From Dokdonia sp. Dokd-P16 (GTDB taxonomy: Bacteria; Bacteroidota; Bacteroidia; Flavobacteriales; Flavobacteriaceae), in contig NZ_CP029151.1 of assembly GCF_003095655.1 (NCBI RefSeq), positions 1,301,001 through 1,365,000 of the forward strand: a stretch of DNA of 64,000 nucleotides, written 5' to 3'. The first letter of the stretch is position 1, and every line of letters starts with the position of its first letter. Below, piece by piece: positions 2,366-63,530 of this stretch. The notes below the pieces were generated by a model. That model was not told the origin of the DNA and did no database searches. It was given only the letters and a program-made list of their open reading frames with translations. Position numbers and translations under genes: made by a program.

Positions 2366-2379
2366 TTTCGCGAAAGCGT
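2366..2379. repeat. Iterated palindrome, half-degenerate copy 1
   Basis: TTTCGCGAAAGCGT; the left arm is degenerate. It sits at the junction of the hairpin repeat block and the 3' end of the nitronate monooxygenase-like gene. Confidence 0.75.
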
Positions 2380-2383
2380 CCTT

Positions 2384-3337
2384 CTATATAAACTTCTTAA
2401 TAATAGTTGCCACAGGCTCTATAGCAGTCGTTTCTTCTATCGATGGGCCAGCTACCCAAACTGTTTTATATGTAGCACTCTGAGCGGCTTTTGTGGTGTC
2501 ACGCATTCCTTTTGCAAAGCGTATAGCCTTTACCCACTTCTTAAGTTTCTTATTCTTGTTAAGTAAGCCTTCTAACCACGTTTGTTTCGTCCCTATCTTT
2601 TGAACGTACGGCGTGTTTATGACAGTACAAGGTGTACCAGAAATCTTCTGAGTCATCACGATATCTTTAGCACCAAAGTCTACACAAGCCTGCTTATATT
2701 CTTGTGAAACTGGAGCCTCTTCTGATGCTATAAAAGGGCTTCCTATACTTGCTCCTATGGCACCATAGGTCATGGCGCGCTCAAGATCTGCTTTATTTGC
2801 AACGCCTCCAGCAGTGATAACTGGAATTGTACAATTTTCATCAAGTTCTTTTATCAGTGCTTCGGGAGCGATGTTACCTCTGTGTCCTCCTGCTTGATTA
2901 TTTACAGCCACAAGAGCATCACAGCCCATAGCCTCTACCTTTTTTGAATAATCAAGGTCTGTTACATCACAAAACACTTTGATTCCCTTAGGTTTTGCCT
3001 GCTCAATCACCATCTGTGGTGATCCTAAGGATGTAATTATAAAGTCTACCCCTAATTCACAAGCTGCCTCAAGCTGTGCAGGGTATTTCATGTTTGATTT
3101 ATTTACAATGAGGTTAATACCAAAAGCTCCTCCAGGAACTTTGGCAGCCTTAAGTTCAGTAATTGCAGCCTTAAGCTCATCTATCGTTCTATAATTGAGT
3201 GCTGGCACACAAGCAGCAATTCCGTTTTCCATTCCGGCTTTGAGCATCGCTACATTAGATACCAAAAACATAGGTGCCATAATGATAGGATGTGTAATTC
3301 CAAGTAAATCTTTTAGGGTAGGTTTTGTTGTGCTCAT
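2384..3337 (-). CDS. Nitronate monooxygenase-like FMN protein (2-nitropropane dioxygenase family)
   Basis: The 317-residue product is a TIM-barrel flavoprotein of the NMO/NPD family. It has the N-terminal HPIIMAPMF motif, a central NNQAGGHRG segment and the phosphate-binding ITAGGVAN and GAIGASIGS segments typical of FMN binding. Members oxidise alkyl nitronates or act as enoyl-ACP reductase-like enzymes, so the substrate is uncertain. The start is placed at 3337 rather than 3355 because a TATATTTG -7 element at 3353-3360 would start transcription downstream of the longer start; this gives a leader of about 10 nt. The gene is monocistronic. Confidence 0.85.
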   Translation of the reverse strand: MSTTKPTLKDLLGITHPIIMAPMFLVSNVAMLKAGMENGIAACVPALNYRTIDELKAAITELKAAKVPGGAFGINLIVNKSNMKYPAQLEAACELGVDFIITSLGSPQMVIEQAKPKGIKVFCDVTDLDYSKKVEAMGCDALVAVNNQAGGHRGNIAPEALIKELDENCTIPVITAGGVANKADLERAMTYGAIGASIGSPFIASEEAPVSQEYKQACVDFGAKDIVMTQKISGTPCTVINTPYVQKIGTKQTWLEGLLNKNKKLKKWVKAIRFAKGMRDTTKAAQSATYKTVWVAGPSIEETTAIEPVATIIKKFI

Positions 3338-3352
3338 AACATTCAATTTAAA

Positions 3353-3360
3353 CAAATATA
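3353..3360 (-). promoter_or_regulatory. Bacteroidota -7 promoter element of the nitronate monooxygenase-like gene
   Basis: TATATTTG on the minus strand fits the TAnnTTTG consensus and lies 16 nt before the chosen ATG. No clear -33 TTTG is visible. Confidence 0.5.
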
Positions 3361-3395
3361 ATCAATCTTACTATGCGTGCATAATACTTTTTTCA

Positions 3396-4409
3396 CTAGA
3401 TTATAGTCGTCACTTTCTCAACAATATCAATAGGTAAGATAGTCGTCATCGCATCCTCATAACCTTCTGGCACTAAGTTTCCATAAATTGAAGTAGGTAT
3501 TTGTGGATACCTTTTTCTATCTGAAAGTAGGCAGTTTACTTCTTGGTTAAATGGTGCAAATCCTGCGTATGGATGCGTTACTCCCCATAATGTTACGGTA
3601 GGGATCCCATACATCGCTGCTAGATGCGCATTACCACTATCCATAGCGAGCATACCATCTAGCTGACTAATAAGATTAATTTCTTCTTTGAACTTAAGTT
3701 TTCCGGCAACCACCTTTGTCATCATGCAACCTTGCGAAAGGTCTCTAAGTATCTCCTCCTCATCTGGTGCTCCAAAAAGGAATAAATTGTATTCTTTCCT
3801 GCCATCTAACTCTCTAATAACTTGCTCCATCAAGTCTAGTGGGTATTGTTTTCCTTGATGTGCTGCAAAAGGCGCAATGCCAATCCACTTTTTATGACAA
3901 CCAGCAGTAAACTCTACAACTTCATTTTGTTTGTTAGGTTTAGGGAGTGGTTCTGGTATAAAATGACCTCCATCTAAGGCTTCAATAACATCTTGATATC
4001 TAGCTATTGTGGTTTTAAGGGCTTTAAAAACTTTGTCTGCACTTCTAGTAAGCGCCTTTTTATCTGGTCTACCTTTATCTAAGCAAACGCTGGGAAGATT
4101 AAGAAACTTACGCAGCATTTTTGAGCGAATTACATTATGCAAATCTGCGACATGTGTGATTCCTAACTTTTTGAGTTGGCGCGATAACTTCCACATACCG
4201 CTTACACCTTTGTGTATGGTATTAACTTCGGCAGCGATAAAAGTTACATTAGGTATTGCCTCTACAATAGGCCTAAAAAAAGGTTTTGAAAGGAAGGATA
4301 TTTTTATTTCTGGGTTCGCTTTCGCGAAAGCGTACACCACAGGCACCGTCATCGCAACGTCTCCCATTGCAGAGAGACGAATGATGAGCATGTGTTTTTG
4401 TTGAGCCAT
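3396..4409 (-). CDS. Glycosyltransferase family 9 (ADP-heptose:LPS heptosyltransferase-like)
   Basis: The 337-residue product has the GT9 N-terminal motif IIRLSAMGDVAMTVPV at residues 9-24 and the C-terminal motif AMDSGNAHLAAMYGIPTVT. GT9 enzymes transfer heptose from ADP-heptose to the LPS inner core at the cytoplasmic face of the inner membrane. The following DUF4254 gene commonly accompanies this type in Flavobacteriaceae. Codons for residues 27-31 (Ala-Phe-Ala-Lys-Ala) are formed by the iterated palindrome at 4317-4332, at the start of helix 1 after the glycine-rich loop. The sugar specificity is inferred from the family. Confidence 0.85.
   Translation of the reverse strand: MAQQKHMLIIRLSAMGDVAMTVPVVYAFAKANPEIKISFLSKPFFRPIVEAIPNVTFIAAEVNTIHKGVSGMWKLSRQLKKLGITHVADLHNVIRSKMLRKFLNLPSVCLDKGRPDKKALTRSADKVFKALKTTIARYQDVIEALDGGHFIPEPLPKPNKQNEVVEFTAGCHKKWIGIAPFAAHQGKQYPLDLMEQVIRELDGRKEYNLFLFGAPDEEEILRDLSQGCMMTKVVAGKLKFKEEINLISQLDGMLAMDSGNAHLAAMYGIPTVTLWGVTHPYAGFAPFNQEVNCLLSDRKRYPQIPTSIYGNLVPEGYEDAMTTILPIDIVEKVTTII
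4317..4332. repeat. Iterated palindrome copy 2 (inside the GT9 gene)
   Basis: CGCTTTCGCGAAAGCG, perfect over 16 bp, read as AFAKA in the heptosyltransferase-like gene. Confidence 0.9.
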
Positions 4410-4467
4410 TATCTCGTTAGACTTGTGAAGGGTTTATCGATTTTAGACTAAATCCTTCAACAGATAA

Positions 4468-7867: not shown

Positions 7868-9178
7868 GTGAATTTATTCAACTGGGCTTTAAAAATGAAA
7901 GGATTTGATACCGCTTTCGCGAAAGCGGAATTGCAACGTATCAAAGACATTCCAGAAAATCAGTATGCCGCTTATATCTCTGAACAGAAAAAAAAGATAG
8001 TTACCCATCACGAAATCTATAATTCATTTTACAGAAAATTTCTTGCCAAAAGAGATGAAAAAGACTGGGAAACACTACCTGTACTGACAAAATCTGATTT
8101 ACAACAGCCTCTTGAAAATAGGCTTTCTCAAAACTATGACCGCAAGAGTGTATACATAAGTAATACATCGGGTTCTTCTGGTCACCCTTTTGTTTTTGCA
8201 AAAGATAAAGTTGCACACGCATTGAGCTGGGTGAGTTTTCAAGATAGATATAACTGGTATCATCTAGATCTGGACACTTCAAAACAAGCACGTTTCTATG
8301 GAATCCCTCTCAATAAAATAGGATATAGAAAGGAAAGGCTCAAGGATAAACTAGGCAACAGATATCGTTTTCCCATTTTTGACTTATGTGATCATAAGCT
8401 TGCCGGTATGGTTGATAAATTTAGAAAGACACCTTTTGACTATATAAATGGTTACACAAGTAGCATTGTATTACTGGCAAAATATTTAAAAAAGCACCAA
8501 CTAATACTCACAGATATTTGCCCAACCCTTAAGGCATGTATTGTAACCAGTGAAATGCTTTTTCCAGATGATTTACAATTAATGGATGAGCAATTTAATG
8601 TCCCAATCATTAATGAATATGGAGCCTCAGAAGTAGGCCTCATCGCCTTTCAAAACAAAAACAAAGAGCTGCAGGTAGACAGTGAGTTATTATTTGTCGA
8701 AATTCTTGATGACAACGATAAAGTATTACCACATGGTGATGTAGGGCGTATTGTTATTACGTCTTTTTATAACAAAGCACACCCTTTTATACGCTATGAT
8801 ATAGGGGATATGGGGTCATTATCTCCCCAAAGCACTCTTAAAAAACCTATTTTAGAAAACTTACAAGGAAGAACAAGTGATATTGCACGTCTTCCTAGTG
8901 GTAAAGTAGTTCCTGGCCTCACATTTTATTATGTGACCAAAAGCATTATAGAGGAAGATGGCAATGTACGTGAATTCATTATTGAACAAACTGCTAAAGA
9001 TTCATTTACATTTATTTACACCTCTGAGAGACCACTTAATGTTCAAGAAAAAAGTAACATTAAAAAAACTACCGCTACATACCTTGAAAGTGGACTTCAA
9101 CTCACATTTGAAAAAGTGGATGTCATGGATCGTAGTAATAGAGGAAAACTTAAACAGTTTGCATCGCTCGTCTCTTAA
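7868..9178 (+). CDS. CapK-like phenylacetate-CoA ligase family protein
   Basis: The 436-residue product belongs to the adenylate-forming PaaK/CapK family. It shows the phosphate-binding loop NTSGSSGHPF near residues 97-106, the EYGASEVG motif and a C-terminal RYDIGD/GRTSD region. CapK proteins in polysaccharide loci probably activate an acyl group for sugar modification; a true phenylacetate-CoA ligase is less likely given the adjacent glycosyltransferase operon. The start is GTG at 7868, because family members begin with an N-LFN-type sequence; an ATG at 7892 is the alternative. The iterated palindrome at 7912 encodes AFAKA near residue 16. It converges on the polysaccharide operon with a 4-bp overlap. 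Confidence 0.8.
   Translation: MNLFNWALKMKGFDTAFAKAELQRIKDIPENQYAAYISEQKKKIVTHHEIYNSFYRKFLAKRDEKDWETLPVLTKSDLQQPLENRLSQNYDRKSVYISNTSGSSGHPFVFAKDKVAHALSWVSFQDRYNWYHLDLDTSKQARFYGIPLNKIGYRKERLKDKLGNRYRFPIFDLCDHKLAGMVDKFRKTPFDYINGYTSSIVLLAKYLKKHQLILTDICPTLKACIVTSEMLFPDDLQLMDEQFNVPIINEYGASEVGLIAFQNKNKELQVDSELLFVEILDDNDKVLPHGDVGRIVITSFYNKAHPFIRYDIGDMGSLSPQSTLKKPILENLQGRTSDIARLPSGKVVPGLTFYYVTKSIIEEDGNVREFIIEQTAKDSFTFIYTSERPLNVQEKSNIKKTTATYLESGLQLTFEKVDVMDRSNRGKLKQFASLVS
7912..7927. repeat. Iterated palindrome copy 3 (inside the CapK-like gene)
   Basis: CGCTTTCGCGAAAGCG, perfect over 16 bp, read as AFAKA near the N-terminus. Confidence 0.9.
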
Positions 9179-9975
9179 ACCTCGTATCGCTGTATCCACT
9201 TAGGTCTCATTACAAAATACTCCCAGAAAAAGCGTAATAAATATAGTGCGGATAGTGTATGAGAATATCCTAGGCAAGTTTTATAAAACTGGTAGTTGTA
9301 CTTGATAAGATTTAATTTATTTGAGCTCATCGAGCCTTCACTTACTCTATAAAAAGCAAGGTCTTCTTGCAAGCCTAAGGCTGGTTTCTTGCTTTTCCTT
9401 ATCGCTTCTAACCATAGCGCCCAGTCTTGTCTCTTTCTAACGGCTGGAGCGCTTATTTTACCTATTGCGGCTGTTTTATAAATGCCCGTGAGATTTCCCA
9501 CATAGTTATTACTATGTTGCTTCTTGTAAGCGAGTTCTGGTAAAGCCACGATGCGTTTTCCAAGTGGCTTTCCACCTTCATCTATATGCACATAGCTGGT
9601 ATAAGAAACGTCACAACCTGTTTCTTGCATGAAAGCAATTTGCTTTTCGAGTTTTTCTGCATGCCATAGGTCGTCAGAGTCTAAGAAGGCTATAAACTTA
9701 CCTTGTGCAGCTTCTGTTGCGACGTTACGAGAATGAGCAGCGCCACTATTTCGCGAAAGCGTAATAAGCTTAATTCTATCATCAAGAGCCGCTAGTGCTT
9801 TCACAATTTGAACAGAATCATCTGTCGAGCAGTCATCAACGATAATTTGTTCCCAGTTTTGATACGTTTGCGCTTGAACACTAGCGATAGTTTGGGCAAT
9901 AAAACGTGCTGCATTATACAGCGGGGTAATAATTGAAACCAGTGGTTCTATATCTTTTTTAGTAAGCTTTGTCAT
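9175..9975 (-). CDS. Glycosyltransferase family 2
   Basis: The 266-residue GT-A enzyme has the family motifs VSIITPLYNA (residues 13-22), VDDCSTDDS and the metal-binding FLDSDDLW. It adds a sugar to the lipid-linked repeat unit on the cytoplasmic face. It is the last gene of the polysaccharide operon and its start overlaps the end of the initiating transferase gene by 17 bp. A half palindrome at 9749 lies in the LITLSRNSGAAH region, where TLSRN is normal for GT2 proteins. Donor and acceptor sugars are unknown. Confidence 0.88.
   Translation of the reverse strand: MTKLTKKDIEPLVSIITPLYNAARFIAQTIASVQAQTYQNWEQIIVDDCSTDDSVQIVKALAALDDRIKLITLSRNSGAAHSRNVATEAAQGKFIAFLDSDDLWHAEKLEKQIAFMQETGCDVSYTSYVHIDEGGKPLGKRIVALPELAYKKQHSNNYVGNLTGIYKTAAIGKISAPAVRKRQDWALWLEAIRKSKKPALGLQEDLAFYRVSEGSMSSNKLNLIKYNYQFYKTCLGYSHTLSALYLLRFFWEYFVMRPKWIQRYEV
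9749..9764. repeat. Iterated palindrome, half-degenerate copy 4 (inside the GT2 gene)
   Basis: TTTCGCGAAAGCGTAA; the left arm has decayed. Read in the TLSRN frame. Confidence 0.7.
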
Positions 9976-12382: not shown

Positions 12383-13606
12383 TTATAACCTACTCAAGGT
12401 TTGAGAAAATTTCTCTAAAATAGGTTTCCTTGCAAATTTTTCAAGTACATACTTTCTTGCAGCTGTACCCATAGTCATAGCTGTATCTGGAGACAAGTTG
12501 AGAGTCTCTAGCTGGCTCAATATTATATCAACATTAATAACGGAGTTATAAAATCCACCATTTGAATCTTTTATAATCTTAGCTGGCTCTGCGTCTGGGT
12601 GACCAGTGATGATAGATGGTCTAGCGCTCGCCATCATTCCTAAGATTTTAGAAGGCATAACAGTATCTACAACCTCGCTTTTTTGAAATAAAATATGCAC
12701 ATCTGTACTAGCGAGTAAACTTGATAACTCTACGAAAGGAACTGGCGCATAAAATTTTACCTTTGTATCCTTTAAACTTTCCTTCAGAGTCTCCATTTTT
12801 GCCCCTGCTCCTACTACGATAACTTCAAACTTATTAAAATCTAATGCTTTGATAACGTTAGTAAATAACTGCCAGTCTTGCTTGTCTCCCACGTTACCAG
12901 AATATAAGATGCTAAATTTCTCTTTTGAGAAAAAAGCATGTTCTTGAGCCTTTAAAGGGTCACTCTCGTCTGCATCTATCCAGTTGGGGAGATAGTAGGT
13001 TCCGGAAGTGGTTTTCTCTTTGAGTTTGGCCAGCATCGTATGACTTATGGTGCTTACATAATCTGCTTTATTAAGGATACTGCGTTCTAGTTTCATCAAG
13101 GCCTTATAAGGCATACTAGTGTTGTTATTTCCAGAGGCAAGACCTGATTGAAAAGCTGCGTCAAATTCAAAATCTTGAATGTGAATCCAGTGTTTTGCGT
13201 TACGCTTTCGCGAAAGCGTATTTCCTAACCATGCACTACTCGTAAAGGGGATTACAGAAATCACAATATCACATTTCGTGATTTGTTTAAAATTAAATCT
13301 TGACCCTATGGTAAAGTCGGCTATGTGAATAACACGCTTTAAGAATGTAGGCTCCTTGGGAGTAAACTGCTTATATCGATATATATCAATGGTTCCCTTC
13401 TTCTCATGCAAATAAGTTCCTTTGTTTTGATATGATTCTGCTATTTCCCACTTTGGATAGTAAGGAAATGCGGTAATTACAGAAATATGCGCCCCTTGAT
13501 CCTCCAGATATTCTGCTAGTTGTGTGCTATACAGACCTATTGCCGTATCTTCTGGATAGAAGTTTAAGGAAATAAGCGTGATGTGTTTGCCTTGTAGGTT
13601 ATTCAA
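12383..13606 (-). CDS. Glycosyltransferase family 4, WcaI/WbuB-like
   Basis: The 407-residue GT-B protein matches the WcaI/WbuB group: N-terminal ISLNFYPEDTAIGLYSTQLAEYL, WIHIQDFEFDAA in the middle and a nucleotide-sugar region VGDKQDW near residue 240 followed by MPSKILGMMASARPSI. These enzymes extend colanic-acid-like or fucosamine-containing repeats. The palindrome at 13201 is read as TLSRKR. The gene overlaps the upstream acetyltransferase gene by 8 bp. Confidence 0.85.
   Translation of the reverse strand: MNNLQGKHITLISLNFYPEDTAIGLYSTQLAEYLEDQGAHISVITAFPYYPKWEIAESYQNKGTYLHEKKGTIDIYRYKQFTPKEPTFLKRVIHIADFTIGSRFNFKQITKCDIVISVIPFTSSAWLGNTLSRKRNAKHWIHIQDFEFDAAFQSGLASGNNNTSMPYKALMKLERSILNKADYVSTISHTMLAKLKEKTTSGTYYLPNWIDADESDPLKAQEHAFFSKEKFSILYSGNVGDKQDWQLFTNVIKALDFNKFEVIVVGAGAKMETLKESLKDTKVKFYAPVPFVELSSLLASTDVHILFQKSEVVDTVMPSKILGMMASARPSIITGHPDAEPAKIIKDSNGGFYNSVINVDIILSQLETLNLSPDTAMTMGTAARKYVLEKFARKPILEKFSQTLSRL
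13201..13220. repeat. Iterated palindrome copy 5, full 20 bp (inside the WcaI-like gene)
   Basis: TACGCTTTCGCGAAAGCGTA, perfect. Read in the TLSRKR frame, not the AFAKA frame. Confidence 0.95.
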
Positions 13607-14147: not shown

Positions 14148-15223
14148 TAGCTTTTAAAGATATTAGTAAGCCTTTCTGAAAAGGCTGTTATCGTAAAATT
14201 TTTATTAAAGTAATTCACATTACCTTCTCCTATTTCCTTAATAGTGGACACATTGTTTACAAGGTACTCCATCTTGGCCGCTAGATCTTCTACCTGTTGT
14301 TTTTCTACAAAAAAACCGTGTTTACCATCTTCTATCACATCTACAATCCCGCCTTGTGTTGTGGTTACTATTAACGATCCTGTAGCCATAGCTTCAAGTA
14401 TTGATATGGGTTGTCCTTCCATAGCATAATAGGTAGGTAATACAAATACATTACCCCACTCAAAAAGTTCTTTCTTTTCTTTTCCTCGTACGACTCCTTT
14501 GTAATCTACGTTTTTGAGCGTGAGTAGCAATGGGTTTACTTGAGACCACATTTCGGAAGTGACACCGCCTCCTATCTGTGCATTGAAGAGCACTCCTTTG
14601 TCTTGAAGAATTTTAAGTGCTCTTAAAAAGATTAAAATACCTTTCTCCTCCATCAAGTTACTCAAATATATAAAACGAGGTGCAGTATATGTCTTTATGA
14701 TGTTTTCTTGTAAATATTCTTCGGCAAAATTAGGAAGTACATGTATATCTTTCGACTGTAAAAATGGAGTGAGATTAGCAATTAAAGATTGAGACAGTAC
14801 AATCCCCGTGTTTGATTTCGACATTAAAAAATGTACAATTCTTTGTTGCACACTACTCATTTGCTCATATGCAGTACCTAGATGATTACCATGTATGTGG
14901 GTAATTATACGCTTTCGCGAAAGCGTACCAAACCCAATAAACAAGGCATATTTAAGAACACCAAAAAAGGTCTGTCCTGGTGTTATATATAAAATATCGT
15001 TTGAAAAAACTTTAAACGCTGCTGTATTATACTTGAGATTATGCCAAAATTTTTTAAATGAAAAGCTTCCTAATTTCTCATCTAGCTCGCTAAATGACGT
15101 ATTAACTATAGTCACCTTAAAACCAGACTTAATCAACAAGTTACTTGCTACTTGGTTTGCCAGTGAAACCCCAGTGGTGGGCTCTGGAAAAGGGCCTACA
15201 ATAAGTATCTTTTTATTAGTCAT
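14147..15223 (-). CDS. Glycosyltransferase family 4
   Basis: The 358-residue product has the GT4 features ILIVGPFPEPTTGVS at the N-terminus, IYLSNLMEEKG at the start of the nucleotide-binding domain and the E-x7-E-like motif in EGQPISILEAMATGSLIV. The start is placed at 15223 (MTNKKILIV) because the longer reading from 15304 lies within the preceding gene and codes for an untypical N-terminus; the chosen start overlaps that gene by 8 bp. The palindrome at 14908 is read as TLSRKR. Confidence 0.87.
   Translation of the reverse strand: MTNKKILIVGPFPEPTTGVSLANQVASNLLIKSGFKVTIVNTSFSELDEKLGSFSFKKFWHNLKYNTAAFKVFSNDILYITPGQTFFGVLKYALFIGFGTLSRKRIITHIHGNHLGTAYEQMSSVQQRIVHFLMSKSNTGIVLSQSLIANLTPFLQSKDIHVLPNFAEEYLQENIIKTYTAPRFIYLSNLMEEKGILIFLRALKILQDKGVLFNAQIGGGVTSEMWSQVNPLLLTLKNVDYKGVVRGKEKKELFEWGNVFVLPTYYAMEGQPISILEAMATGSLIVTTTQGGIVDVIEDGKHGFFVEKQQVEDLAAKMEYLVNNVSTIKEIGEGNVNYFNKNFTITAFSERLTNIFKS
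14908..14927. repeat. Iterated palindrome copy 6, full 20 bp (inside a GT4 gene)
   Basis: TACGCTTTCGCGAAAGCGTA, perfect, read as TLSRKR. Confidence 0.95.
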
Positions 15224-17854: not shown

Positions 17855-18917
17855 CCTTTGCTACTAAGTTAATAAAAACCTGAGCCATCGCTTCTACTGC
17901 ATAATGCTTTGCACAAGATTTTGATATTCTTGAACGTCTTTTTATCCACTCATCTCGGCTTGAGAATATGCTTAGTACGCTTTCGCGAAAGGAATTGATG
18001 TCGTCACTATCATAAAATAATGAATTTTCATCTTCAATAGCTGCCTCTATTTCTGGAGAATGGGGTTCTCCATTAGAAATCAACATAGGTACACCAAACC
18101 CAAAACTTTGAGTAATGGATAAACCTACATAGCCAGGCGAAACGCTCATAATACTGCTAGCATATAAGCCCTTTAACATGTGTTGATCATAAATATGTCC
18201 AAGCAACTGTACTCGAGATTCTAGCCGTTGTACTTTTATATAACCACTTATTTCATCTTTTTCCTCACCTTCCCCCACGATTAACAGATTTGTGTCCTCA
18301 GGAAGGTACTCGATAATGGCGCTGAACGCTTTTACAAGAAACAGCACCTTTTTAGCCTTAGTGAGCCTCCCTACATAAATAAGATTACGAGGATTTTCAG
18401 ATACTGGAACCATCTCGTTTTTATTAATCAAGGCGTTCGGTGCTGCGTAGATTAACTTTTTAGGCATTTTAAATTGCAGCTCTTGCTGCTGCTGTTTTGT
18501 ATAAACCACTATACTATTTGCAAGCTTACGCATTTGCTGCCGTAATAAATCACTCTTAGATTCTTTACCGTTACGAGGCCAAGCATGTCCCCATAATACC
18601 GTCTCCTTTTTTGACCATTTTCTTCTCAAAAGTAAATACCAATTTGATATAATACGCGGGTTCATCTCTAACACGAGTAAACCCTCTTCTTGTACGAGAT
18701 GTTTTATGCCTCGTTGCCAAAGAAACTTACCTCCTAGTAAATAAAAGTTGGTGACAGAGTGATGTATAATTGTATTGTCCGTCTTAACAGATGATTCAAA
18801 ATAGTAACTCCCTCCATACAATTCAAAGCGAGAACCTAAAGAATCTCTAATATGCTCAAAGAACCGACCTCTATAGTCCGGCAGAACCGTTTGGAGAATA
18901 GTAAGTCTATGCTCCAT
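17844..18917 (-). CDS. Glycosyltransferase family 4
   Basis: The 357-residue GT-B enzyme contains LIYVGRLTKAKKVLFLVKAF at the start of the nucleotide-binding half, and SITQSFGFGVPMLIS in place of the usual E-x7-E segment. The start is placed at 18917 (MEHRLTILQ), which overlaps the flippase gene by 11 bp; the upstream ATG at 18959 is within that gene. A palindrome copy at 17976 is read in the third frame as SFRES. The sugar specificity is unknown. Confidence 0.82.
   Translation of the reverse strand: MEHRLTILQTVLPDYRGRFFEHIRDSLGSRFELYGGSYYFESSVKTDNTIIHHSVTNFYLLGGKFLWQRGIKHLVQEEGLLVLEMNPRIISNWYLLLRRKWSKKETVLWGHAWPRNGKESKSDLLRQQMRKLANSIVVYTKQQQQELQFKMPKKLIYAAPNALINKNEMVPVSENPRNLIYVGRLTKAKKVLFLVKAFSAIIEYLPEDTNLLIVGEGEEKDEISGYIKVQRLESRVQLLGHIYDQHMLKGLYASSIMSVSPGYVGLSITQSFGFGVPMLISNGEPHSPEIEAAIEDENSLFYDSDDINSFRESVLSIFSSRDEWIKRRSRISKSCAKHYAVEAMAQVFINLVAKDVR
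17976..17991. repeat. Iterated palindrome copy 7, right arm shortened (inside a GT4 gene)
   Basis: TACGCTTTCGCGAAAG; the only copy in the window read in the RFRES frame. Confidence 0.85.
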
Positions 18918-20796: not shown

Positions 20797-21858
20797 CTAT
20801 TTATTTTTAAGATACCAATTATATAATCTATTAACTCCATCCTCAAGCGCTACCGTATGTTTCCATCCTAAGCTATTGAGTTTTGTTACGTCTGTAAGTT
20901 TGCGCGGAGTTCCATCTGGTTTTGAACTATCAAAAATTAACGCTCCTGTAAAACCTATCGTTTCTTTGATGAGGGTAGCTAGCTCTTTTATAGAGATATC
21001 CTCTCCTGTGCCTATGTTGATGTGTGTATTCCTTACTTCGGTGGTGCTTCCTTTTACGTCATCAAAACTTGTGTTCTCTAAGATATGTACACAAGCATCT
21101 GCCATGTCTTGACTCCATAAAAATTCTCTTCTAGGCGTTCCTGTTCCCCATATCTCAACACTTTCAGCTGTAACACCAAACTTTTCTAGTATAGGTTGCG
21201 CTTTCGCGAAAGCGGAAACATCTAGATCCTTACAAACCTCATCGTTCTTTCCTTCAGAGAGTAGTTTTGCAAGGTGAATCTTTCTTATTAGTGCTGGTAG
21301 CACGTGAGATTTCTCTAAGTCGAAGTTGTCATTAAATCCATATAGATTAGTAGGCATCACCGAAATGAAATCTGTTCCATATTGCAGATTATAACTCTCG
21401 CAGAGTTTAATACCTGCTATTTTTGCAATAGCATACGGCTCATTTGTGTATTCTAAAGCGCCTGTGAGCAGAGCATCCTCTGGCATAGGTTGCGGTGCAT
21501 TTTTAGGGTAAATACAGGTACTTCCTAAAAATAACAACTTCTTAACTCCGTGTACATAACTCTGATGAATTACATTATTTTGAATCATGAGATTCACGTA
21601 CAGAAAATCTGCTCGATACGTATTATTTGCTATAATCCCACCCACTTTTGCGGCTGCAAGAAAAACATATTCAGGCTTTTCTTGTTCAAAGAAGAGTTGG
21701 GTTGCAACAGTATCTGTTAAATCAAGCTCCTTGTGAGTTCGCGTGATTATGTCCGCATAACCTTTTGCTTTAAGCGTGTTTACAATCGCGCTTCCCACCA
21801 GGCCGCGATGTCCAGCAACAAATATTCTAGCGTTTTTAGGTATTGATATATTACTCAA
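20797..21858 (-). CDS. fcl: GDP-L-fucose synthase
   Basis: The 353-residue SDR has the [13 protein letters not shown]-binding motif, [10 protein letters not shown] and [11 protein letters not shown] with the catalytic Tyr-x3-Lys, and [12 protein letters not shown]. It epimerises and reduces GDP-4-keto-6-deoxymannose to GDP-L-fucose. Bacteroidota members carry an insert of about 35 residues before the WGTG motif; here the palindrome at 21199 supplies AFAKA within this variable loop. It overlaps gmd by 8 bp, forming the GDP-fucose pair. Confidence 0.95.
21199..21214. repeat. Iterated palindrome copy 8 (inside fcl)
   Basis: CGCTTTCGCGAAAGCG, read as AFAKA in the lineage-specific insert of GDP-fucose synthase. 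Confidence 0.9.
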
Positions 21859-25795: not shown

Positions 25796-27286
25796 CTATT
25801 TTGATTGCAATAGATCGGCAATCTTTCGATCGTTTGAAAGACGTGGAATTTTATTTTGACCACCTAACTTTCCTTGTGATTTCATGTAATTATTAAAGCC
25901 ATCTTTTACCACCTTCGTGATTTTCAATGGCTGGAGTACCTTTCCTGTGATTAAGTCAAGGTAGTATGAATTTTGAGCTTGTAGTGAGGAATCTAACGCT
26001 TTCGCGAAAGCGTGCAAATCACCACTACCCTCATTTTCAAATTCTATAAACCACTCATGATAAGGCAACCCATCTTGAGGTGCAACTTGAGGCGCTACGG
26101 TAAACTCTGTCACTTTAATATCTGTTCCGGCTGAGGCTTCAAGCATGGCTTGCTCAACTTCCTTACCTATGACATGCTCTCCAAAAGCCGAAATAAAATG
26201 CTTAATTCTCCCAGAAACCATAATACGATATGGTTTGAGACTCGTAAATATCACGGTATCTCCTATGTTATAAGCCCATAAACCTGCTGTGGTAGAGATA
26301 ATCATCACATAATTTACGTCAAGCGCTACATCCTTAAGCGTTATTCTCGTAGGATTCTCGTTAAAAAACTCATCTGCTTTTACAAACTCATAAAAGATAC
26401 CGTTGTCTAGTTGCAACAGCATTCCTTTCTCTGTTTGCGTATCTTGAAAAGCAAAAAATCCTTCACTCGCTGGATATAACTCAATGCTGTCTACACTTCT
26501 ACCTATAAGATCTTCTAGCTTGCGGCGGTAAGGTTCATAATTCACACCTCCATATACAAACAACTGATAGTTTTTAAAGAGCTCTCCCACCGTTTTACCA
26601 CTCTTCTGGATAAGGCGCTCATAATACATCTGTACCCACGGAGGAATCCCTCCTATAAGCGTCATATCTTGGTCTATCGTTTCAGCTACAATCGCATCTA
26701 CCTTTTGCTCCCAGTCGTCTATACAATTAGTCTCAAGACTAGGAAGCCTATTCTTCTGTAGGTAATTAGGCACATAGTGTGCGACAATACCAGAAAGGCG
26801 GCCTAGTTTGATGCCATTCTTTTCGGTCATCTCTGGGCTTCCTTGTAAAAATATCATCTTACCATCTACAAAGTCAGTATTTCCTGTCTCTGCGATGTAA
26901 GAAAGAATTGCATTACGCGCACTATTAGGGTGCGTTTTCATGCTGTCCTTAGTAAGCGGAATGTACTTTACTCCAGAAGTAGTTCCAGAAGTTTTTGCAA
27001 AATAAAGAGGTTTTCCTGGCCAGAGTATATCTGGTTCTCCAGCGACCATTTTATCCACATAGTAGCGCAAGTCTTCATAATCTCTTATGGGAACTTGCTT
27101 TACAAAATCTGCATGTGACTTTATCGTGTCAAAACGGTGATCATTACCAAAAGCTGTATACTGAGCAGCACCTATAAGACTCTCAAAAACTTTGTGCTGA
27201 GTCTCAATAGGGTTGTCTGCCCATTTTTTTATACTTCGCTGTATGTACGACGCAAAAATTTTTGCTCCAAAAGACTTTATCGACAT
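25796..27286 (-). CDS. GH3-family acyl-adenylating protein
   Basis: The 496-residue product matches the GH3 auxin-responsive family, which in plants joins amino acids to acyl hormones through an adenylate. AKTSGTTSGVKYIPLT is the ATP-binding loop and ELYPASEGFFAFQ the second motif; YNIGDTVIFTSLKPYRI follows. In bacteria the substrates are unknown. The palindrome at 25996 encodes AFAKA near residue 430, in the C-terminal lid. Its start overlaps the upstream M23 peptidase stop by one base. Confidence 0.88.
   Translation of the reverse strand: MSIKSFGAKIFASYIQRSIKKWADNPIETQHKVFESLIGAAQYTAFGNDHRFDTIKSHADFVKQVPIRDYEDLRYYVDKMVAGEPDILWPGKPLYFAKTSGTTSGVKYIPLTKDSMKTHPNSARNAILSYIAETGNTDFVDGKMIFLQGSPEMTEKNGIKLGRLSGIVAHYVPNYLQKNRLPSLETNCIDDWEQKVDAIVAETIDQDMTLIGGIPPWVQMYYERLIQKSGKTVGELFKNYQLFVYGGVNYEPYRRKLEDLIGRSVDSIELYPASEGFFAFQDTQTEKGMLLQLDNGIFYEFVKADEFFNENPTRITLKDVALDVNYVMIISTTAGLWAYNIGDTVIFTSLKPYRIMVSGRIKHFISAFGEHVIGKEVEQAMLEASAGTDIKVTEFTVAPQVAPQDGLPYHEWFIEFENEGSGDLHAFAKALDSSLQAQNSYYLDLITGKVLQPLKITKVVKDGFNNYMKSQGKLGGQNKIPRLSNDRKIADLLQSK
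25996..26013. repeat. Iterated palindrome copy 9 (inside the GH3 gene)
   Basis: ACGCTTTCGCGAAAGCGT, perfect over 18 bp, read as HAFAKAL. Confidence 0.92.
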
Positions 27287-28196: not shown

Positions 28197-28212
28197 TTAC
28201 GCTTTCGCGAAA
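28197..28212. repeat. Iterated palindrome copy 10, right arm shortened
   Basis: TTACGCTTTCGCGAAA in the divergent gap between the M23 gene and tatA. Confidence 0.8.
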
Positions 28213-37132: not shown

Positions 37133-37138
37133 CAACTT

Positions 37139-39090: not shown

Positions 39091-39112
39091 TTACGCTTTC
39101 GCGAAAGTGTAA
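39091..39112. repeat. Iterated palindrome copy 15, one mismatch (mnmG leader)
   Basis: TTACGCTTTCGCGAAAGTG then TAA; symmetric except for one base. It lies between the mnmG promoter and parS site C. Confidence 0.85.
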
Positions 39113-43312: not shown

Positions 43313-44830
43313 ATGTCTCAAAACGTTCGGGTGCGATTTGCACCTTCACCTACTGGGCCATTGCACATCGGTGGTGTGCGTACGGCGCTTTTTAATTATT
43401 TATTTGCAAAAAAACATGGAGGTACTTTTATCCTCCGTATAGAAGATACAGATCAAAATCGCTATGTACCTGGTGCAGAAGATTATATACGTGAGAGTCT
43501 AGACTGGTGCGGTATTTCATATGATGAAGGACCTACAAAAGATGGCGGATTTGGACCTTATAGACAAAGTGAACGTAAGGATAAGTATCACGCTTTCGCG
43601 AAAGCGTTAGTAGACTCAAATAATGCTTACTATGCATTTGATACTGCCGAAAGTCTTGATGCACATAGAAAAGATCACGAAGCAAACGGCAAAACCTTTA
43701 TCTATAACTGGCACAATCGCCTTAAACTAGATAACTCTCTCGTTCTATCGCAAGAAGAAACAGAGAAGCGTATAGCCGCTGGCGAAAATTATGTGATACG
43801 TTTTAAATCTCCTCAAGATGAAGTATTACAACTACGTGATGAAATCCGTGGTGCTATGGAGATTGATACCAATATTCTAGATGATAAGGTGTTATTTAAA
43901 TCTGACGGGATGCCTACCTATCACCTAGCAAACATAGTAGATGACCATTTAATGGAAATTACTCATGTGATACGTGGTGAAGAGTGGTTACCATCTCTAG
44001 CGTTGCACGTGTTATTATATAGAGCCTTTGGATGGGATGCGCCGGTATTTGCTCACCTACCGCTTATTCTCAAACCTGTAGGGAAAGGAAAATTAAGTAA
44101 ACGTGATGGTGATAAATTAGGATTTCCAGTATTTCCGTTACAATGGGAAGATCCAAAATCAAACGAAATTTCTTCTGGATACAGAGAAGACGGTTACTTT
44201 GCAGAAGCAATGGTAAACATGCTTGCCTTTTTAGGATGGAATCCTGGTACGGAACAAGAAATTTTTAGTCTAGAAGAGCTTGTAGCAGCTTTTGACTTAA
44301 AACGTGTTAATAAAGCTGGAGCAAAGTTTGATCCAGAAAAGACAAAGTGGTTCCAGCAGCAGTATATGCAAGAATCTCCTGTAGCACTTATAGCAGATCA
44401 ATTTATGACATTCTTAAAGGATAAGAATGTTACCGCTACAGAGGAATATACTACACACGTAGTTGATCTTATTAAAGAACGCGCCATCTTTGTAGAAGAT
44501 TTATGGACATTAGGAAGTTACTTCTTTACTGCTCCAACAGAGTTTGATGAAAAGGCAGCCAAGAAAGCTTGGAAAGAAGATACGGCGGCCATCATGGAAG
44601 AGGTGAAAATTATATTATCTGGCGTATCTAACTTCACAACAATAGAAGCTCAAACAGCTCTTAAGGAGTGGATTGTAGCAAAGGAATTAGGTTTTGGAAA
44701 AGTAATGCAACCTTTTAGATTATCACTTGTGGGCGCTATGCAAGGACCTGATGTTTTTGATATTGCTACCACCATTAGCAAAGAAGAAACATTGCGACGT
44801 ATAGATTATGCAATTACCACACTAGGATAA
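43313..44830 (+). CDS. gltX: Glutamate-tRNA ligase
   Basis: The 505-residue class I synthetase has FAPSPTGPLHIGGVRTALFNYLFA with the HIGH-type motif at residues 18-21 and the KLSKRDG form of KMSKS. It charges tRNA-Glu in the cytoplasm. The palindrome at 43591 encodes HAFAKALV in the segment before AYYAFDT, where other GltX proteins have an alanine- and lysine-rich helix, so the peptide fits the family. It is followed by a bidirectional terminator. Confidence 0.95.
   Translation: MSQNVRVRFAPSPTGPLHIGGVRTALFNYLFAKKHGGTFILRIEDTDQNRYVPGAEDYIRESLDWCGISYDEGPTKDGGFGPYRQSERKDKYHAFAKALVDSNNAYYAFDTAESLDAHRKDHEANGKTFIYNWHNRLKLDNSLVLSQEETEKRIAAGENYVIRFKSPQDEVLQLRDEIRGAMEIDTNILDDKVLFKSDGMPTYHLANIVDDHLMEITHVIRGEEWLPSLALHVLLYRAFGWDAPVFAHLPLILKPVGKGKLSKRDGDKLGFPVFPLQWEDPKSNEISSGYREDGYFAEAMVNMLAFLGWNPGTEQEIFSLEELVAAFDLKRVNKAGAKFDPEKTKWFQQQYMQESPVALIADQFMTFLKDKNVTATEEYTTHVVDLIKERAIFVEDLWTLGSYFFTAPTEFDEKAAKKAWKEDTAAIMEEVKIILSGVSNFTTIEAQTALKEWIVAKELGFGKVMQPFRLSLVGAMQGPDVFDIATTISKEETLRRIDYAITTLG
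43591..43606. repeat. Iterated palindrome copy 16 (inside gltX)
   Basis: CGCTTTCGCGAAAGCG, read as AFAKA. Confidence 0.92.
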
Positions 44831-48013: not shown

Positions 48014-50050
48014 TTAAAATTTAGACGCTGCTTCTTGTAATATTTCGTTGCTATCTTCTTTTGCCTTTTCAACAAATGCTTCGGCTCCTTCAATGTCATT
48101 AATGGTTTTATTTTGCGCTTTCGCGAAAGCGTACAAACTCTCAATACCCGCAATACGGGTACCCACCTTTTTTGCCGACGTATTAAAGAATCCTTTTACT
48201 TCATCTTCCGTTAAACTCGCTGCTAGCTTCTGTATATCTGCCACAGCCGCAAGACGCTTATCTTCTGGAAGGTTTGCAAGTTTCTTTCCTAGTTTATTAA
48301 TCGTACTTAACGCAGAAGCTTTTTGTTGTTGCTGTGGTTTTGCTTGCCCTTGAGCATTACCTTGTGCTTGTTTAGGCTTCACTTTTGCCCATGAATCACG
48401 TAAACCTACGGTTCTATTAAAAATAAGGTGATCTGCTGTAGACTCTTTATCTACATTAAAATATCCCTTGCGCTGGAACTGGAATATATCACCTACCTCA
48501 ACGTCTTTAAGACTAGGCTCAAGGTATCCAGTAATCGTAGTAAGACTGTTAGGATTTATAAATTCCATAAAGTCTTTATCCTCATGTCCATCTGGATTTT
48601 CATCACTAAATAATCTATCAAATAAACGTACCTCTGCTTTAATAGCATGAGCAATAGAAACCCAGTGTAGCGTTCCTTTTACATTGCGCTTAGAAGCTTC
48701 TGTACCGCTTCCAGATCTACTCTCTGGATCATAGGTACAATGTATCTCTGTGATAACTCCGTTCTCATCTTTGATAACCTCACCACCTTTTATGATGTAT
48801 GAGTTTTTTAAACGTACTTCCTTATCTGTAGTAAGGCGGAAATACTTGTTTCCGGCATTTTCTTTAAAATCCTCACGCTCTATGTACAACTCTCTACTAA
48901 AAGGAACTTTACGCTCTCCTGCAGCCTCATCTTCTGGATTATTCTCTGCATCTAGCCACTCCTCTTTTCCTTCTGGATAGTTAGTAATGACAAGTTTTAC
49001 TGGATCTAATACTGCCATTACTCTAGGAGCAATGTTATTTAAATCCTGACGAATATGGAATTCTAACAATGCAACATCAATCACATTCTCACGCTTTGCA
49101 ACTCCTACTGCATCAATAAAATTACGTATTGCTGCTGCAGTATAACCACGACGTCTTAGTCCAGAAATAGTAGGCATACGTGGGTCATCCCATCCAGATA
49201 CAACTCCTTTTTCAACTAATGTGAGCAACTTACGTTTACTCATAATAGTATAATTGAGGTTGAGACGTGCAAACTCGCGCTGCTTAGGACGTAAATCATC
49301 ACCAGAATATACTTGATCTAAGAACCAATCATAAAGTTCTCTGTGAGGCTTAAACTCAAGCGAGCATAAACTATGACTTACCTGTTCTATATAATCACTC
49401 TCTCCATGTGTCCAGTCATACATAGGGTAGATACACCAGTCACTACCTGTACGGTGGTGATCTTTATGCAGTACACGATAAATAATAGGATCACGCATTA
49501 ACATGTTTACATGCGCCATGTCAATTTTTGCACGTAAAATATGCTCTCCTTCCTTAAACTCACCCGCTTTCATTCTAGCAAAAAGGTCTAAGTTTTCTTC
49601 TACCGTACGATCACGGTAAGGTCCAGGCACACCGGGTTGTGTAGGTGTTCCCTTTTGCTCTGCCATAGCCTCACTAGATTGAGAATCTACATAAGCTTTT
49701 CCATCCTTAATAAGCTGGACAGTCCAATCATATAACTGCTGGAAATAATCACTAGAAAAACATTCCTTATCCCATTGATACCCTAACCAAGAAACATCTT
49801 CCTTGATAGCATCTACATATTCTTGCTCTTCCTTTGCAGGATTTGTATCGTCAAAACGTAAGTTTACCGGTGCCCCGTACTTCTCCCCTAGCCCAAAACT
49901 TATACAGATTGCCTTACAGTGACCTATATGTAAATACCCATTAGGCTCTGGTGGAAAGCGAAAACGCAAATCCTCCTTAGTATAGCTTCCTTTAAGGTCT
50001 TCTTCAACAATTTGTTCTAGAAAATTCAATGATTTATTATCCTCTGTCAT
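48014..50050 (-). CDS. glnS: Glutamine-tRNA ligase with C-terminal YqeY-like extension
   Basis: The 678-residue product has the GlnRS core, RFPPEPNGYLHIGHCKAI with the HIGH motif, and MSKRKL as the KMSKS motif. After about residue 555 a Gln/Ala-rich linker leads to a helical YqeY-like domain (LANLPEDKRLAAVADIQKLAASLTEDEV and onward). It charges tRNA-Gln directly, and with gltX in this window it implies no need for the transamidation route for Gln. The palindrome at 48116 encodes AFAKA in the C-terminal domain. Confidence 0.94.
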   Translation of the reverse strand: MTEDNKSLNFLEQIVEEDLKGSYTKEDLRFRFPPEPNGYLHIGHCKAICISFGLGEKYGAPVNLRFDDTNPAKEEQEYVDAIKEDVSWLGYQWDKECFSSDYFQQLYDWTVQLIKDGKAYVDSQSSEAMAEQKGTPTQPGVPGPYRDRTVEENLDLFARMKAGEFKEGEHILRAKIDMAHVNMLMRDPIIYRVLHKDHHRTGSDWCIYPMYDWTHGESDYIEQVSHSLCSLEFKPHRELYDWFLDQVYSGDDLRPKQREFARLNLNYTIMSKRKLLTLVEKGVVSGWDDPRMPTISGLRRRGYTAAAIRNFIDAVGVAKRENVIDVALLEFHIRQDLNNIAPRVMAVLDPVKLVITNYPEGKEEWLDAENNPEDEAAGERKVPFSRELYIEREDFKENAGNKYFRLTTDKEVRLKNSYIIKGGEVIKDENGVITEIHCTYDPESRSGSGTEASKRNVKGTLHWVSIAHAIKAEVRLFDRLFSDENPDGHEDKDFMEFINPNSLTTITGYLEPSLKDVEVGDIFQFQRKGYFNVDKESTADHLIFNRTVGLRDSWAKVKPKQAQGNAQGQAKPQQQQKASALSTINKLGKKLANLPEDKRLAAVADIQKLAASLTEDEVKGFFNTSAKKVGTRIAGIESLYAFAKAQNKTINDIEGAEAFVEKAKEDSNEILQEAASKF
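48116..48131. repeat. Iterated palindrome copy 17 (inside glnS)
   Basis: CGCTTTCGCGAAAGCG, read as YAFAKAQ in the C-terminal domain. Confidence 0.92.
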
Positions 50051-53001: not shown

Positions 53002-53021
53002 TACGCTTTCGCGAAAGCGTA
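53002..53021. repeat. Iterated palindrome copy 18, full 20 bp
   Basis: TACGCTTTCGCGAAAGCGTA, perfect, 10 bp after the stop of the GNAT-nitrilase gene and in the open frame leading into the small zinc-ribbon ORF. Confidence 0.95.
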
Positions 53022-57029: not shown

Positions 57030-57049
57030 TACGCTTTCGCGAAAGCGTA
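57030..57049. repeat. Iterated palindrome copy 19, full 20 bp
   Basis: TACGCTTTCGCGAAAGCGTA, perfect, about 100 bp upstream of rnr and within the divergent gap. Confidence 0.95.
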
Positions 57050-59261: not shown

Positions 59262-59281
59262 TACGCTTTCGCGAAAGCGTA
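59262..59281. repeat. Iterated palindrome copy 20, full 20 bp
   Basis: TACGCTTTCGCGAAAGCGTA, perfect, 7 bp before the 3' end of the CarboxypepD-like gene in a convergent gap; it could also act as a hairpin. Confidence 0.95.
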
Positions 59282-62264: not shown

Positions 62265-62282
62265 ACGCTTTCGCGAAAGCGT
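62265..62282. repeat. Iterated palindrome copy 21, 18 bp
   Basis: ACGCTTTCGCGAAAGCGT, perfect, in the 64-bp gap between the DUF4349 gene and ctpA. Confidence 0.93.
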
Positions 62283-62289
62283 ACGTATA

Positions 62290-63111
62290 TTATTTATGTT
62301 TCTTTTTCATCCAGCGACGCACAAAAAAAGCGCTTATACTTAACAAGATAAGAAATGGCCAAAGATGCAACAAACCTAAAAAGAATACCGAAACACCGTT
62401 CCAGCCACTTTTAAGGGCATTAATCATTTTTGAACCATAGGAGTTTGTGACCTTAGTATCCACCTCGTTCTTATAAAAATGGATATTTAGAGTGCTTAAT
62501 GAGACTTGGCTTTCAAGGTATTTGAGTCTTCCTTGCTTTGCTTCTATTTCTTCTCGTATCTCTGCGAGTTCGCGTTCTATCTCTAGCATTTCTTTGACAT
62601 TTTTTGCCTTTGAAAGTAAGTCGATATAACGATCTTCTAGCGCTCGCTTTGCTTTAAGGCGGGCGTTGAGGTCTACAAATTCTTCTGTAACGTCTTTTTG
62701 AGAGATAGTTTTCTCGTCAAAATATGCTACACCTTTTGAAATCTCATCAAGTGCTATCTGGAAGTTACGAGTAGGAACACGTACAGTAAGATTTTGAAAA
62801 ACGCCGCCGTAGCTCTCTTTACCGGAATTATCATTCTGTATGTACCCTTCAGTCTTTTTTATAATATTGAGAATATGTGCGTGCGTTGCCGCCATATCCT
62901 GAGTTTCAAAACGTAGATTTCCTGTTTTGATAATTTTTTGTGTGGTGGCTTGGGCGTTTGGAGCACTTTCTTCGAGTACAATTTCCTCAATCTCCATATC
63001 GTCAAACGCCTCGTATGTTATTCCTGGTTCGCTATTGCTATAAGTACCGGTTTCGGCATTTTCACATGAAATAATGAATAAAAAACTAAGAAGTAGAAGA
63101 AACTGTCGCAT
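62290..63111 (-). CDS. DUF4349 lipoprotein
   Basis: The 273-residue product has a lipoprotein signal ending in LFIISCENA, a periplasmic part with a coiled coil (about residues 150-200), and a C-terminal membrane helix (about 240-265) with a basic tail. It fits DUF4349, whose members occur widely and have no assigned role. Its 5' end overlaps rnpA by 26 bp. Confidence 0.85.
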   Translation of the reverse strand: MRQFLLLLSFLFIISCENAETGTYSNSEPGITYEAFDDMEIEEIVLEESAPNAQATTQKIIKTGNLRFETQDMAATHAHILNIIKKTEGYIQNDNSGKESYGGVFQNLTVRVPTRNFQIALDEISKGVAYFDEKTISQKDVTEEFVDLNARLKAKRALEDRYIDLLSKAKNVKEMLEIERELAEIREEIEAKQGRLKYLESQVSLSTLNIHFYKNEVDTKVTNSYGSKMINALKSGWNGVSVFFLGLLHLWPFLILLSISAFFVRRWMKKKHK

Positions 63112-63469
63112 CGTTAAAACGTTTTATAAGTTTGACCATGGCCTTATGAAGCACTGCTTGAGAGACTTCTTCTTGGCCTGTATATAATATAAGCATCGCA
63201 AATGTCGTGCCTTTTGTATCTATAAGGTCTTTATGTAAACGATAGGACTCTCGCATTAAACGTTTTATGCGATTGCGAGAAACAGCCAACTTAAAATTAC
63301 GCTTGGACACAGAAACTCCAGCTTGTACCACGTAAGCATCAGTAGATAGTGGTGTTTCTATATAAACCATCCTAAGCGGAAAAGACTTCACAGACTTTCC
63401 CTCAATAAAAAGGGTGTCTATCAGTTTTTTAGACTTTAATTTTTCGGCTTTTGGGTAGGTGTGTGGCAT
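63086..63469 (-). CDS. rnpA: Ribonuclease P protein component
   Basis: The 127-residue basic protein has the RNase P signature RNRIKRLMRESYR and an N-terminal KAEKLKSKKLIDTLF. It assists the RNA subunit in trimming tRNA 5' ends. Start at 63469 (MPHTYPK) is preferred; the TTG upstream at 63478 overlaps the promoter. The -7 element lies about 7 nt before the ATG, so the message is nearly leaderless. rpmH, usual neighbour, is not seen here. Confidence 0.92.
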   Translation of the reverse strand: MPHTYPKAEKLKSKKLIDTLFIEGKSVKSFPLRMVYIETPLSTDAYVVQAGVSVSKRNFKLAVSRNRIKRLMRESYRLHKDLIDTKGTTFAMLILYTGQEEVSQAVLHKAMVKLIKRFNDATVSSTS

Positions 63470-63475
63470 TGCGAG

Positions 63476-63483
63476 CAAAGATA
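63476..63483 (-). promoter_or_regulatory. -7 promoter element of rnpA
   Basis: TATCTTTG on the minus strand, 6 nt before the chosen ATG. Confidence 0.45.
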
Positions 63484-63513
63484 ACAGAATTCAAATAGGT
63501 TGTATGATGCTAG

Positions 63514-63530
63514 TACGCTTTCGCGAAAGC
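63514..63530. repeat. Iterated palindrome copy 22, right arm shortened
   Basis: TACGCTTTCGCGAAAGC, in the divergent gap between rnpA and the umuD-like gene. Confidence 0.85.

Follow-up and report, generated by a model that had tools for sequence, protein, structure and literature searches.

An evenly spaced palindromic site on Dokdonia chromosomes and its likeness to DNA uptake sequences

Uptake signal sequences (USS) and DNA uptake sequences (DUS), as set out in the accessible parts of two studies (PMC7811141, PMC1939737), occur in hundreds to thousands of copies, many of them genic, evolve by point mutation, are flanked by a tail and come in lineage variants. USS are also carried by a temperate phage (HP1). 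HIP1 of cyanobacteria (GCGATCGC) is a highly iterated palindrome limited to some lineages, the sites of Noc, SlmA and MatP and the parS sites are palindromic, conserved and dispersed, and the repetitive extragenic palindromes (REP) of REP/RAYT systems are palindromic and dispersed. We describe here a site that shares these properties, found in a 64,000-bp stretch of Dokdonia sp. Dokd-P16 (the window; G000:C1:1301001-1365000, on a single contig of 3,623,447 bp) that holds 22 copies of its 10-bp core, TTTCGCGAAA, a perfect palindrome. Among known systems, uptake sequences share the most features with it, and we favor, with a probability of roughly 0.4, a chromosome-wide self-DNA signal that would work like a DNA uptake sequence. 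The site is likened to uptake sequences in its working and is not filed as one because the palindromic core departs from a defining feature of USS and DUS; it also differs from them in having one or two tail modules and in its occurrence in Bacteroidota, and from USS in its mean spacing of 3–5 kb, as against about 1 kb.

Copy number and anatomy of the site

The preliminary description of the window reported a 20-bp palindrome occurring 22 times. The positions stand, but it is the 10-bp core that occurs 22 times; the longer forms are fewer, with 19 copies of CTTTCGCGAAAG, 16 of GCTTTCGCGAAAGC, 14 of CGCTTTCGCGAAAGCG, nine of the 18-mer and just six of the exact 20-mer. Up to three mismatches to the 20-mer recover 18 places in the window, against none in 100 shuffles, and the first-order Markov (Markov-1) expectations for the window are 0.065 for the 10-mer, 0.00015 for the 14-mer and 2e-8 for the 20-mer, in agreement with the earlier view that not even one 14-bp copy would be expected by chance. 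The Markov comparison and genome-wide count proposed at that time place the motif far from background: the whole genome (hereafter G000) holds 808 exact 14-mers and none of the reversed-pattern control, and one short word is thus strongly over-represented genome-wide, as in uptake sequences. The shuffles, the Markov-1 expectation and the reversed-pattern control together reject chance or base composition as the cause. With 150 cores and 117 14-mers per 464 kb, we infer some 1,000 cores in the entire genome. Perfect and one-mismatch cores number 150 and 34, where scrambled palindromes give 0.74 and 18.9, which is a steep fall; for H. influenzae, the accessible text of PMC1939737 gives a 92-fold drop in over-representation from the perfect to the one-mismatch form.

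Each site is built of the core and one or two outward modules, a module being a GC(G) arm with, on its outer side, a tail some 20 nt long that is rich in A and C and poor in G. One-armed sites make up six of the 22 in the window and 33 of the 150 cores in 464 kb of G000, the remaining 117 being two-armed and none lacking a GC arm; 360 kb of G206, whose GltX is identical to that of D. sinensis SH27, contains 90 two-armed and 21 one-armed cores. Two arms are present at 14 of 15 cores in the genus g191 and at 33 of 41 phage copies, with seven of the latter one-armed and one armless. Beyond the arm in G000, G content rises from 7.3% at distance 11–20 from the centre to 10.7% at 21–30 and 17.3% at 51–65. 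One-armed sites have 11.5% and 17.0% G (G000) and 16.2% and 21.9% G (G206) at distances 11–20 and 21–30 on the side that lacks an arm, and their armed and armless sides differ with p values of 0.11 and 0.0024 (G000) and 0.0032 and 0.0035 (G206). Because the G-poor bias is weaker or absent on the armless side, the arm and tail seem to constitute one module. Each module is polar and one suffices, and a site seems to require the core and one module, rare exceptions aside. The one-armed sites have no orientation bias (18 arm-left and 15 arm-right in G000).

Beyond the arms the copies share composition only, and an extended hairpin is rejected since the flanks are no more complementary than shuffled controls. 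C-to-T wear as the origin of the C-poor 5' flanks is also rejected, the polarised substitutions showing no C>T excess (1/94 at d9-13 and 3/114 at d14-20, versus 23/1044 at d31-65). At d9, which adjoins the shared core, A is dominant in Dokdonia (0.57, left strand) and the genus g11 is mixed.

Cores lie within open reading frames (ORFs) in 87 of 150 cases (58%) in G000 and 65 of 111 in G206, and their density per base is about 5.5 to 7.5 times higher between ORFs than within them. The commonest coding frame is xAFAKA (48/87 genic copies in G000, 38/65 in G206), and some genic copies are held in signal-peptide-like N termini. Convergent gene ends carry 1.96 cores per kb in G000 (1.17–1.59 in other intergenic DNA) and 0.94 in G206 (0.88–1.50 in the others). 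In the window, longest-ORF gene calls bear out the division into 13 genic and nine intergenic copies first described. The sites are listed below by window position; the site itself is assigned no strand, and signs refer to the ORFs.

Site 1, 2366..2375: core with right arm only; intergenic, at a tandem-repeat edge
Site 2, 4318..4331: two-armed (GCTTTCGCGAAAGC); in ORF 3396-4409 (-), frame xAFAKA
Site 3, 7913..7926: two-armed; in ORF 7868-9178 (+), frame xAFAKA
Site 4, 9749..9758: core with right arm only; in ORF 9175-9975 (-)
Site 5, 13204..13217: two-armed, exact 20-mer at 13201-13220; in ORF 12383-13606 (-)
Site 6, 14911..14924: two-armed, exact 20-mer at 14908-14927; in ORF 14147-15304 (-)
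Site 7, 17981..17990: core with left arm only; in ORF 17844-18959 (-)
Site 8, 21200..21213: two-armed; in ORF 20797-21858 (-), frame xAFAKA
Site 9, 25998..26011: two-armed; in ORF 25796-27286 (-), frame xAFAKA
Site 10, 28203..28212: core with left arm only; intergenic
Site 11, 28574..28587: two-armed, exact 20-mer at 28571-28590; between predicted ORFs
Site 12, 31071..31084: two-armed; in ORF 30671-32365 (-), frame xAFAKA
Site 13, 32220..32233: two-armed; in ORF 30671-32365 (-), signal-peptide-like N terminus (SAFAKAQ)
Site 14, 36912..36921: core with left arm only; in ORF 36299-37135 (-); one core base differs at the aligned place in G206
Site 15, 39097..39106: core with left arm only; intergenic
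Site 16, 43592..43605: two-armed; in ORF 43313-44830 (+); D. sinensis has the core at the aligned position
Site 17, 48117..48130: two-armed; in ORF 48014-50050 (-); D. sinensis has the core at the aligned position
Site 18, 53005..53018: two-armed, exact 20-mer at 53002-53021; intergenic; D. sinensis has the core at the aligned position
Site 19, 57033..57046: two-armed, exact 20-mer at 57030-57049; intergenic
Site 20, 59265..59278: two-armed, exact 20-mer at 59262-59281; between convergent genes
Site 21, 62267..62280: two-armed; intergenic
Site 22, 63517..63530: two-armed; between divergent genes

By resemblance, ORF 43313-44830 (+) probably encodes glutamyl-tRNA synthetase. The repeat at site 1 contains GATCTCTCCTAGCGTC and occurs four times in intergenic DNA at 1836-2370, with spacings of 144, 169 and 169 bp, the site at 2366 abutting the last copy; one copy of it is present in each of the G400 and G402 stretches described below and none in those of G206, G399 and G397.

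Maintenance, turnover and spacing

To score retention, the 464 kb of G000 were aligned by BLAST with stretches of five relatives; all 10-mers in these alignments serve as the control, and sites at alignment edges were dropped.

G399, 92.5% identity: core kept at 53/59 places, 10-mers 0.574; 53/54 from the relative's side; two edge sites dropped
G400, 89.1% identity: core kept at 54/55, 10-mers 0.421; 54/55 from the relative's side; five dropped
G397, 78.4% identity: core kept at 40/51, 10-mers 0.164; 40/46 from the relative's side; five dropped
G402, 72.6% identity: core kept at 31/42, 10-mers 0.081; 31/35 from the relative's side; three dropped
G206, 71.7% identity: core kept at 29/45, 10-mers 0.065; 29/49 from the relative's side; four dropped

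The sites are maintained far above background. This extends to the copies at 2366, 9749 and 28197 that had been thought decayed, in that these are actually one-armed sites, a class retained like the two-armed one in the first four relatives (14/15, 14/15, 10/13 and 8/10, versus 39/44, 40/40, 30/38 and 23/32), G206 being the exception with 2/7 one-armed and 27/38 two-armed sites kept. Places where the site is not conserved are mostly of the same length and differ by ungapped substitutions, such that gain and loss proceed by point mutation as in uptake sequences; being short, highly iterated and not inserted as a unit, the palindrome also matches HIP1 in this trait. Constraint peaks at positions up to some 8 bp from the centre. 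At intergenic copies the next 10–12 bp change somewhat faster (0.10–0.14, versus 0.08 in distant intergenic DNA, in the two closest relatives), and no such faster change is seen at genic copies. One G000 palindrome, in the aligned block that begins at position 165425 of the joined 464-kb segment, corresponds in G399 to a form that is 24 bases longer around its middle and holds a TTCGACTGCGCTC-type repeat.

The fairly even spacing noted in the window is borne out well beyond what random placement gives. The coefficient of variation (CV) of core spacing is 0.56 in G000, 0.64 in G206, 0.54 in G399, 0.46 in G400, 0.49 in G397 and 0.60 in G402, compared with 0.97–0.99 for random placement and simulated minima of 0.60–0.74 (2,000 simulations per stretch), the G402 value merely equalling its own simulated minimum at printed precision. 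Neighbours are seldom close, with 13 pairs less than 1 kb apart in G000 where 41 are expected, and the largest core gap is 8,388 bp in 464 kb; among the first 100 14-mer matches listed for G000 there is a 14-mer gap of 37 kb, from 82,016 to 118,849. Of 18 sites found in G206 and not in G000, 3 have a G000 site no more than 800 bp away; for randomly chosen aligned positions the share is 50%. Repeating the test yields 2/6 for G397 and 2/3 for G402, very small samples in which avoidance is not seen. In g11 the smallest distances are 2,160 bp (80 kb of G242) and 2,010 bp (40 kb of G394). These two stretches also contain four copies of a different, parS-like palindrome, TTTCACGTGAAA, and another parS-like palindrome, GTTCCACGTGGAAC, is found in four copies near gltX at L037:2485-4960 and other Aquimarina loci and is unrelated to the core motif.

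Distribution among genomes and mobile DNA

The count in related Flavobacteriaceae that had been suggested shows all 18 Dokdonia genomes to be rich, with 369–905 copies. Across 397 genomes of the family, G000 included, 80 have any copy and six are rich (808 in G000, 857 in G206, 578, 664 and 609 in g11, and 408 in g191), the other 391 having 0–19; rich genera are thus three of 237 sampled. Genus g11 might be Nonlabens. In 394 genomes phylum-wide, none beyond the family has more than one copy. Among 80 GltX loci kept from a search of named genomes, that of D. sinensis is nearest to G000, the three from Dokdonia have 3–5 cores each and one of the 77 others has a single core, and six loci of about 21.5 kb from Leeuwenhoekiella, which is placed beside Dokdonia in the GltX tree (support 88), contain none. 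Explaining the rich genera on that tree (103 rows) takes a minimum of three label changes, of which firmly supported branches force one, and the site may have had one origin in these genera or several. The copy number of 13 Dokdonia genomes at least 90% complete (sizes rounded) relates to genome size with r = 0.34 (p = 0.25), and density drops as the genome grows (Spearman -0.70, p = 0.0075). In one 187-kb stretch compared with three relatives, the parts that align to all of them hold 45 sites (145 kb), those that align to two hold 3 (6.8 kb), to only one 13 (28.3 kb) and to none 1 (6.6 kb), and with densities so mixed a distribution confined to shared core DNA is not favored.

The relic hypothesis for g77 and g52 (16, 19 and 17 copies) is rejected because nearly all copies are clustered in about 25–78 kb (16/16 in G076, 18/19 in G287 and 16/17 in G051). 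A metal-efflux region common to several Flavobacteriaceae genera, with RND efflux, outer-membrane efflux and multicopper oxidase genes, has a site about every 5 kb (L403-L406, L120-L139), including two copies 933 bp apart inside one outer-membrane efflux gene; we treat it as a putative island. When an 80-kb stretch of G076 is compared with homologous stretches of other genera (68.7–77.7% identical), the copy is kept in 24/42 comparisons, and in 24/31 in the reverse view, against a 10-mer background of 3–11%; these are pairwise comparisons that count the same copies against several related stretches.

Phages also carry the site. A scan of IMG/VR gave at least 120 stretches, 74 among the matches listed being single matches at a GC of at least 0.47. 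Choosing 22 loci for low GC or several copies led to 18 phage records with 1–8 copies each, two of which share positions and may be near-duplicates, and eight records were read further. By their gene content, contigs G418 (integrase, terminase and portal) and G419 (Mu-like transposase, transposition protein and tail sheath) are shown as temperate in type; G417 has one weak terminase match among three proteins scanned. For comparison, HP1, a temperate phage of Haemophilus, has 17 USS 9-mers in 32,355 bp with a spacing CV of 0.51. Two phages that bear the name Nonlabens phage have no copies in 35,000 and 34,000 bp, and no integrase is annotated in the stretches read.

Plausible readings of the site

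A self-DNA tag, preserved through either drive or selection, agrees with the facts. Working like an uptake sequence, such a tag would be read by a sequence-specific double-strand DNA-binding protein and, less surely, this would happen during DNA import from relatives; site-bearing fragments would be preferentially taken up and recombined, lost sites would be restored and gaps filled, and resident phages and integrated elements would thereby acquire the site. Support comes from the retention, the losses by substitution, the constraint near the centre, the over-regular spacing, the arm-tied G-poor tails, the d9 lineage difference, the steep one-mismatch fall, the relation of density to genome size, and phage carriage, to be seen beside the USS of HP1 and the lack of the site in the two Nonlabens-named phages. 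The turnover by point mutation, the tail, even spacing, the d9 difference and carriage by temperate-type phages fit uptake sequences at least as well as they fit organiser sites. The accessible part of PMC7811141 describes AT-rich flanks for Haemophilus USS, comparable with the G-poor tails, and lineage-specific preferred motifs in uptake sequences, which the d9 difference resembles.

Several observations weigh against a self-DNA signal of this kind. USS and DUS are not palindromes, according to the accessible text of PMC1939737, and the core here is one. No reader protein was found among ParB_N and three methyltransferase families (SlmA- and MatP-type proteins were not searched). DNA aligned to one relative in the 187-kb stretch has 0.46 sites per kb, versus 0.31 in DNA aligned to all three, the opposite of what drive through recombination between relatives would lead one to expect. 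Genera poor in sites nevertheless harbour an island that carries it, the two Nonlabens-named phages without copies have a host that is not known to be site-rich, and carriage by temperate-type phages is equally expected of a chromosome-organising site acting within the cell. The literature searched holds no uptake test and nothing on Dokdonia transformation, nor any account of the motif (subscription journals lie mostly outside that search), and the accessible part of PMC5217627 does not mention the site-rich genera; natural competence is in print for Riemerella (PMC7965970, accessible part).

A binding site for a nucleoid- or chromosome-organising protein, like those of SlmA, Noc and MatP in function though far more numerous and arrayed as a lattice, is a serious rival that we regard as quite possible without thinking it probable. 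A dimer bound to the palindrome and steadied by the tails would space chromosome domains, and resident prophages and islands would come to carry the site. The palindromic core, strong conservation and even lattice all suit this arrangement, as do the avoidance of G000 sites by G206-specific ones (3/18, random 50%), the maximum gap of 8.4 kb, the carriage by phage contigs and the island, and accessory-like DNA that is not poorer in sites. TTTC..GAAA also resembles parS and Noc sites. However, Noc, SlmA, MatP and parS sites are far fewer than the roughly 800 copies here, and the half-site spacing of parS differs from that of this motif. Richness is patchy (three of 237 genera, with neighbouring Leeuwenhoekiella lacking the core in six loci), copy number hardly tracks genome size, and avoidance is not repeated in G397 or G402, both too small. 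The 10 rich genomes searched have a single ParB_N match apiece, so that these lack the second ParB of a Noc system and a Noc-like ParB paralogue fails as the reader.

A Chi-like recombination signal, at which a repair nuclease-helicase or its partner would switch from degradation to repair with a palindrome serving both directions, strikes us as improbable. One site per 3–5 kb, even coverage, and phage and island carriage speak for it, and the density of E. coli Chi is similar. Nevertheless, known Chi sites are polar and 5–8 nt long, E. coli Chi being a short polar octamer, whereas here a long palindrome of 10 bp is kept together with an arm, and the one-armed sites have no strand preference (18 versus 15).

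The likeness to HIP1 or to organiser sites that was proposed at the outset holds for the class of highly iterated signals, but neither the HIP1 mechanism nor a Noc-like ParB paralogue is borne out. Creation and upkeep by a solitary methyltransferase and mismatch repair, a link argued for HIP1 in the accessible part of PMC4390886, is very doubtful here, even though the site is highly iterated, palindromic and substitution-based. Neither G000 nor G242 has a match to PF00145, PF01555 or PF02086, the only methyltransferase families searched, leaving G000 without a cognate solitary enzyme from these three; none of the three is present in all 10 rich genomes searched, and some of these genomes have members. 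TCGCGA outside the core occurs 35 times versus 56 expected by composition, and unlike the 8-bp HIP1 the site spans 10–16 bp with tails.

We give little credence to a transcription terminator or RNA hairpin, which the perfect palindrome and the 5.5- to 7.5-fold higher density between ORFs might suggest, because an intrinsic terminator (a hairpin and T run near gene ends) is rejected by an A/C-rich 3' flank with no T run, by the 87/150 and 65/111 cores inside ORFs and by the lack of a consistent preference for convergent ends. A miniature mobile element or REP-like repeat would account for hundreds of dispersed near-identical copies but has almost no likelihood, as orthologous non-sites are mostly of equal length and differ by substitution, the insertion of a unit into empty sites expected of REP or miniature inverted-repeat transposable elements is not seen at most non-conserved places, the majority of sites are genic, unlike those of REP/RAYT, and copies share composition only past the arms, with no common flanking sequence; insertion or transposition is thus rejected for the bulk of sites, in accord with the earlier view of an orientation-free element that is not a transposon, and the site occurs across the sampled chromosome.

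We also tentatively propose a new kind of lattice, in which palindromic cores with one or two polar tail modules, held a few kilobases apart by selection, would be read within the cell by a putative protein restricted to a few Flavobacteriaceae genera and would mark DNA as resident, such that temperate phages and islands carry the mark and some other phages do without. If the site is an uptake signal, it would provide a third lineage, of marine non-pathogens, for testing why uptake sequences exist, and we know of no other palindromic uptake signal. If it is an organiser site, it would form a lattice of hundreds of sites, much denser than any organiser sites known to us, and selection appears to act on its spacing. 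Either way, because phages and a shared metal-efflux island carry the site, the findings suggest that mobile DNA adapts to a host-specific DNA mark.

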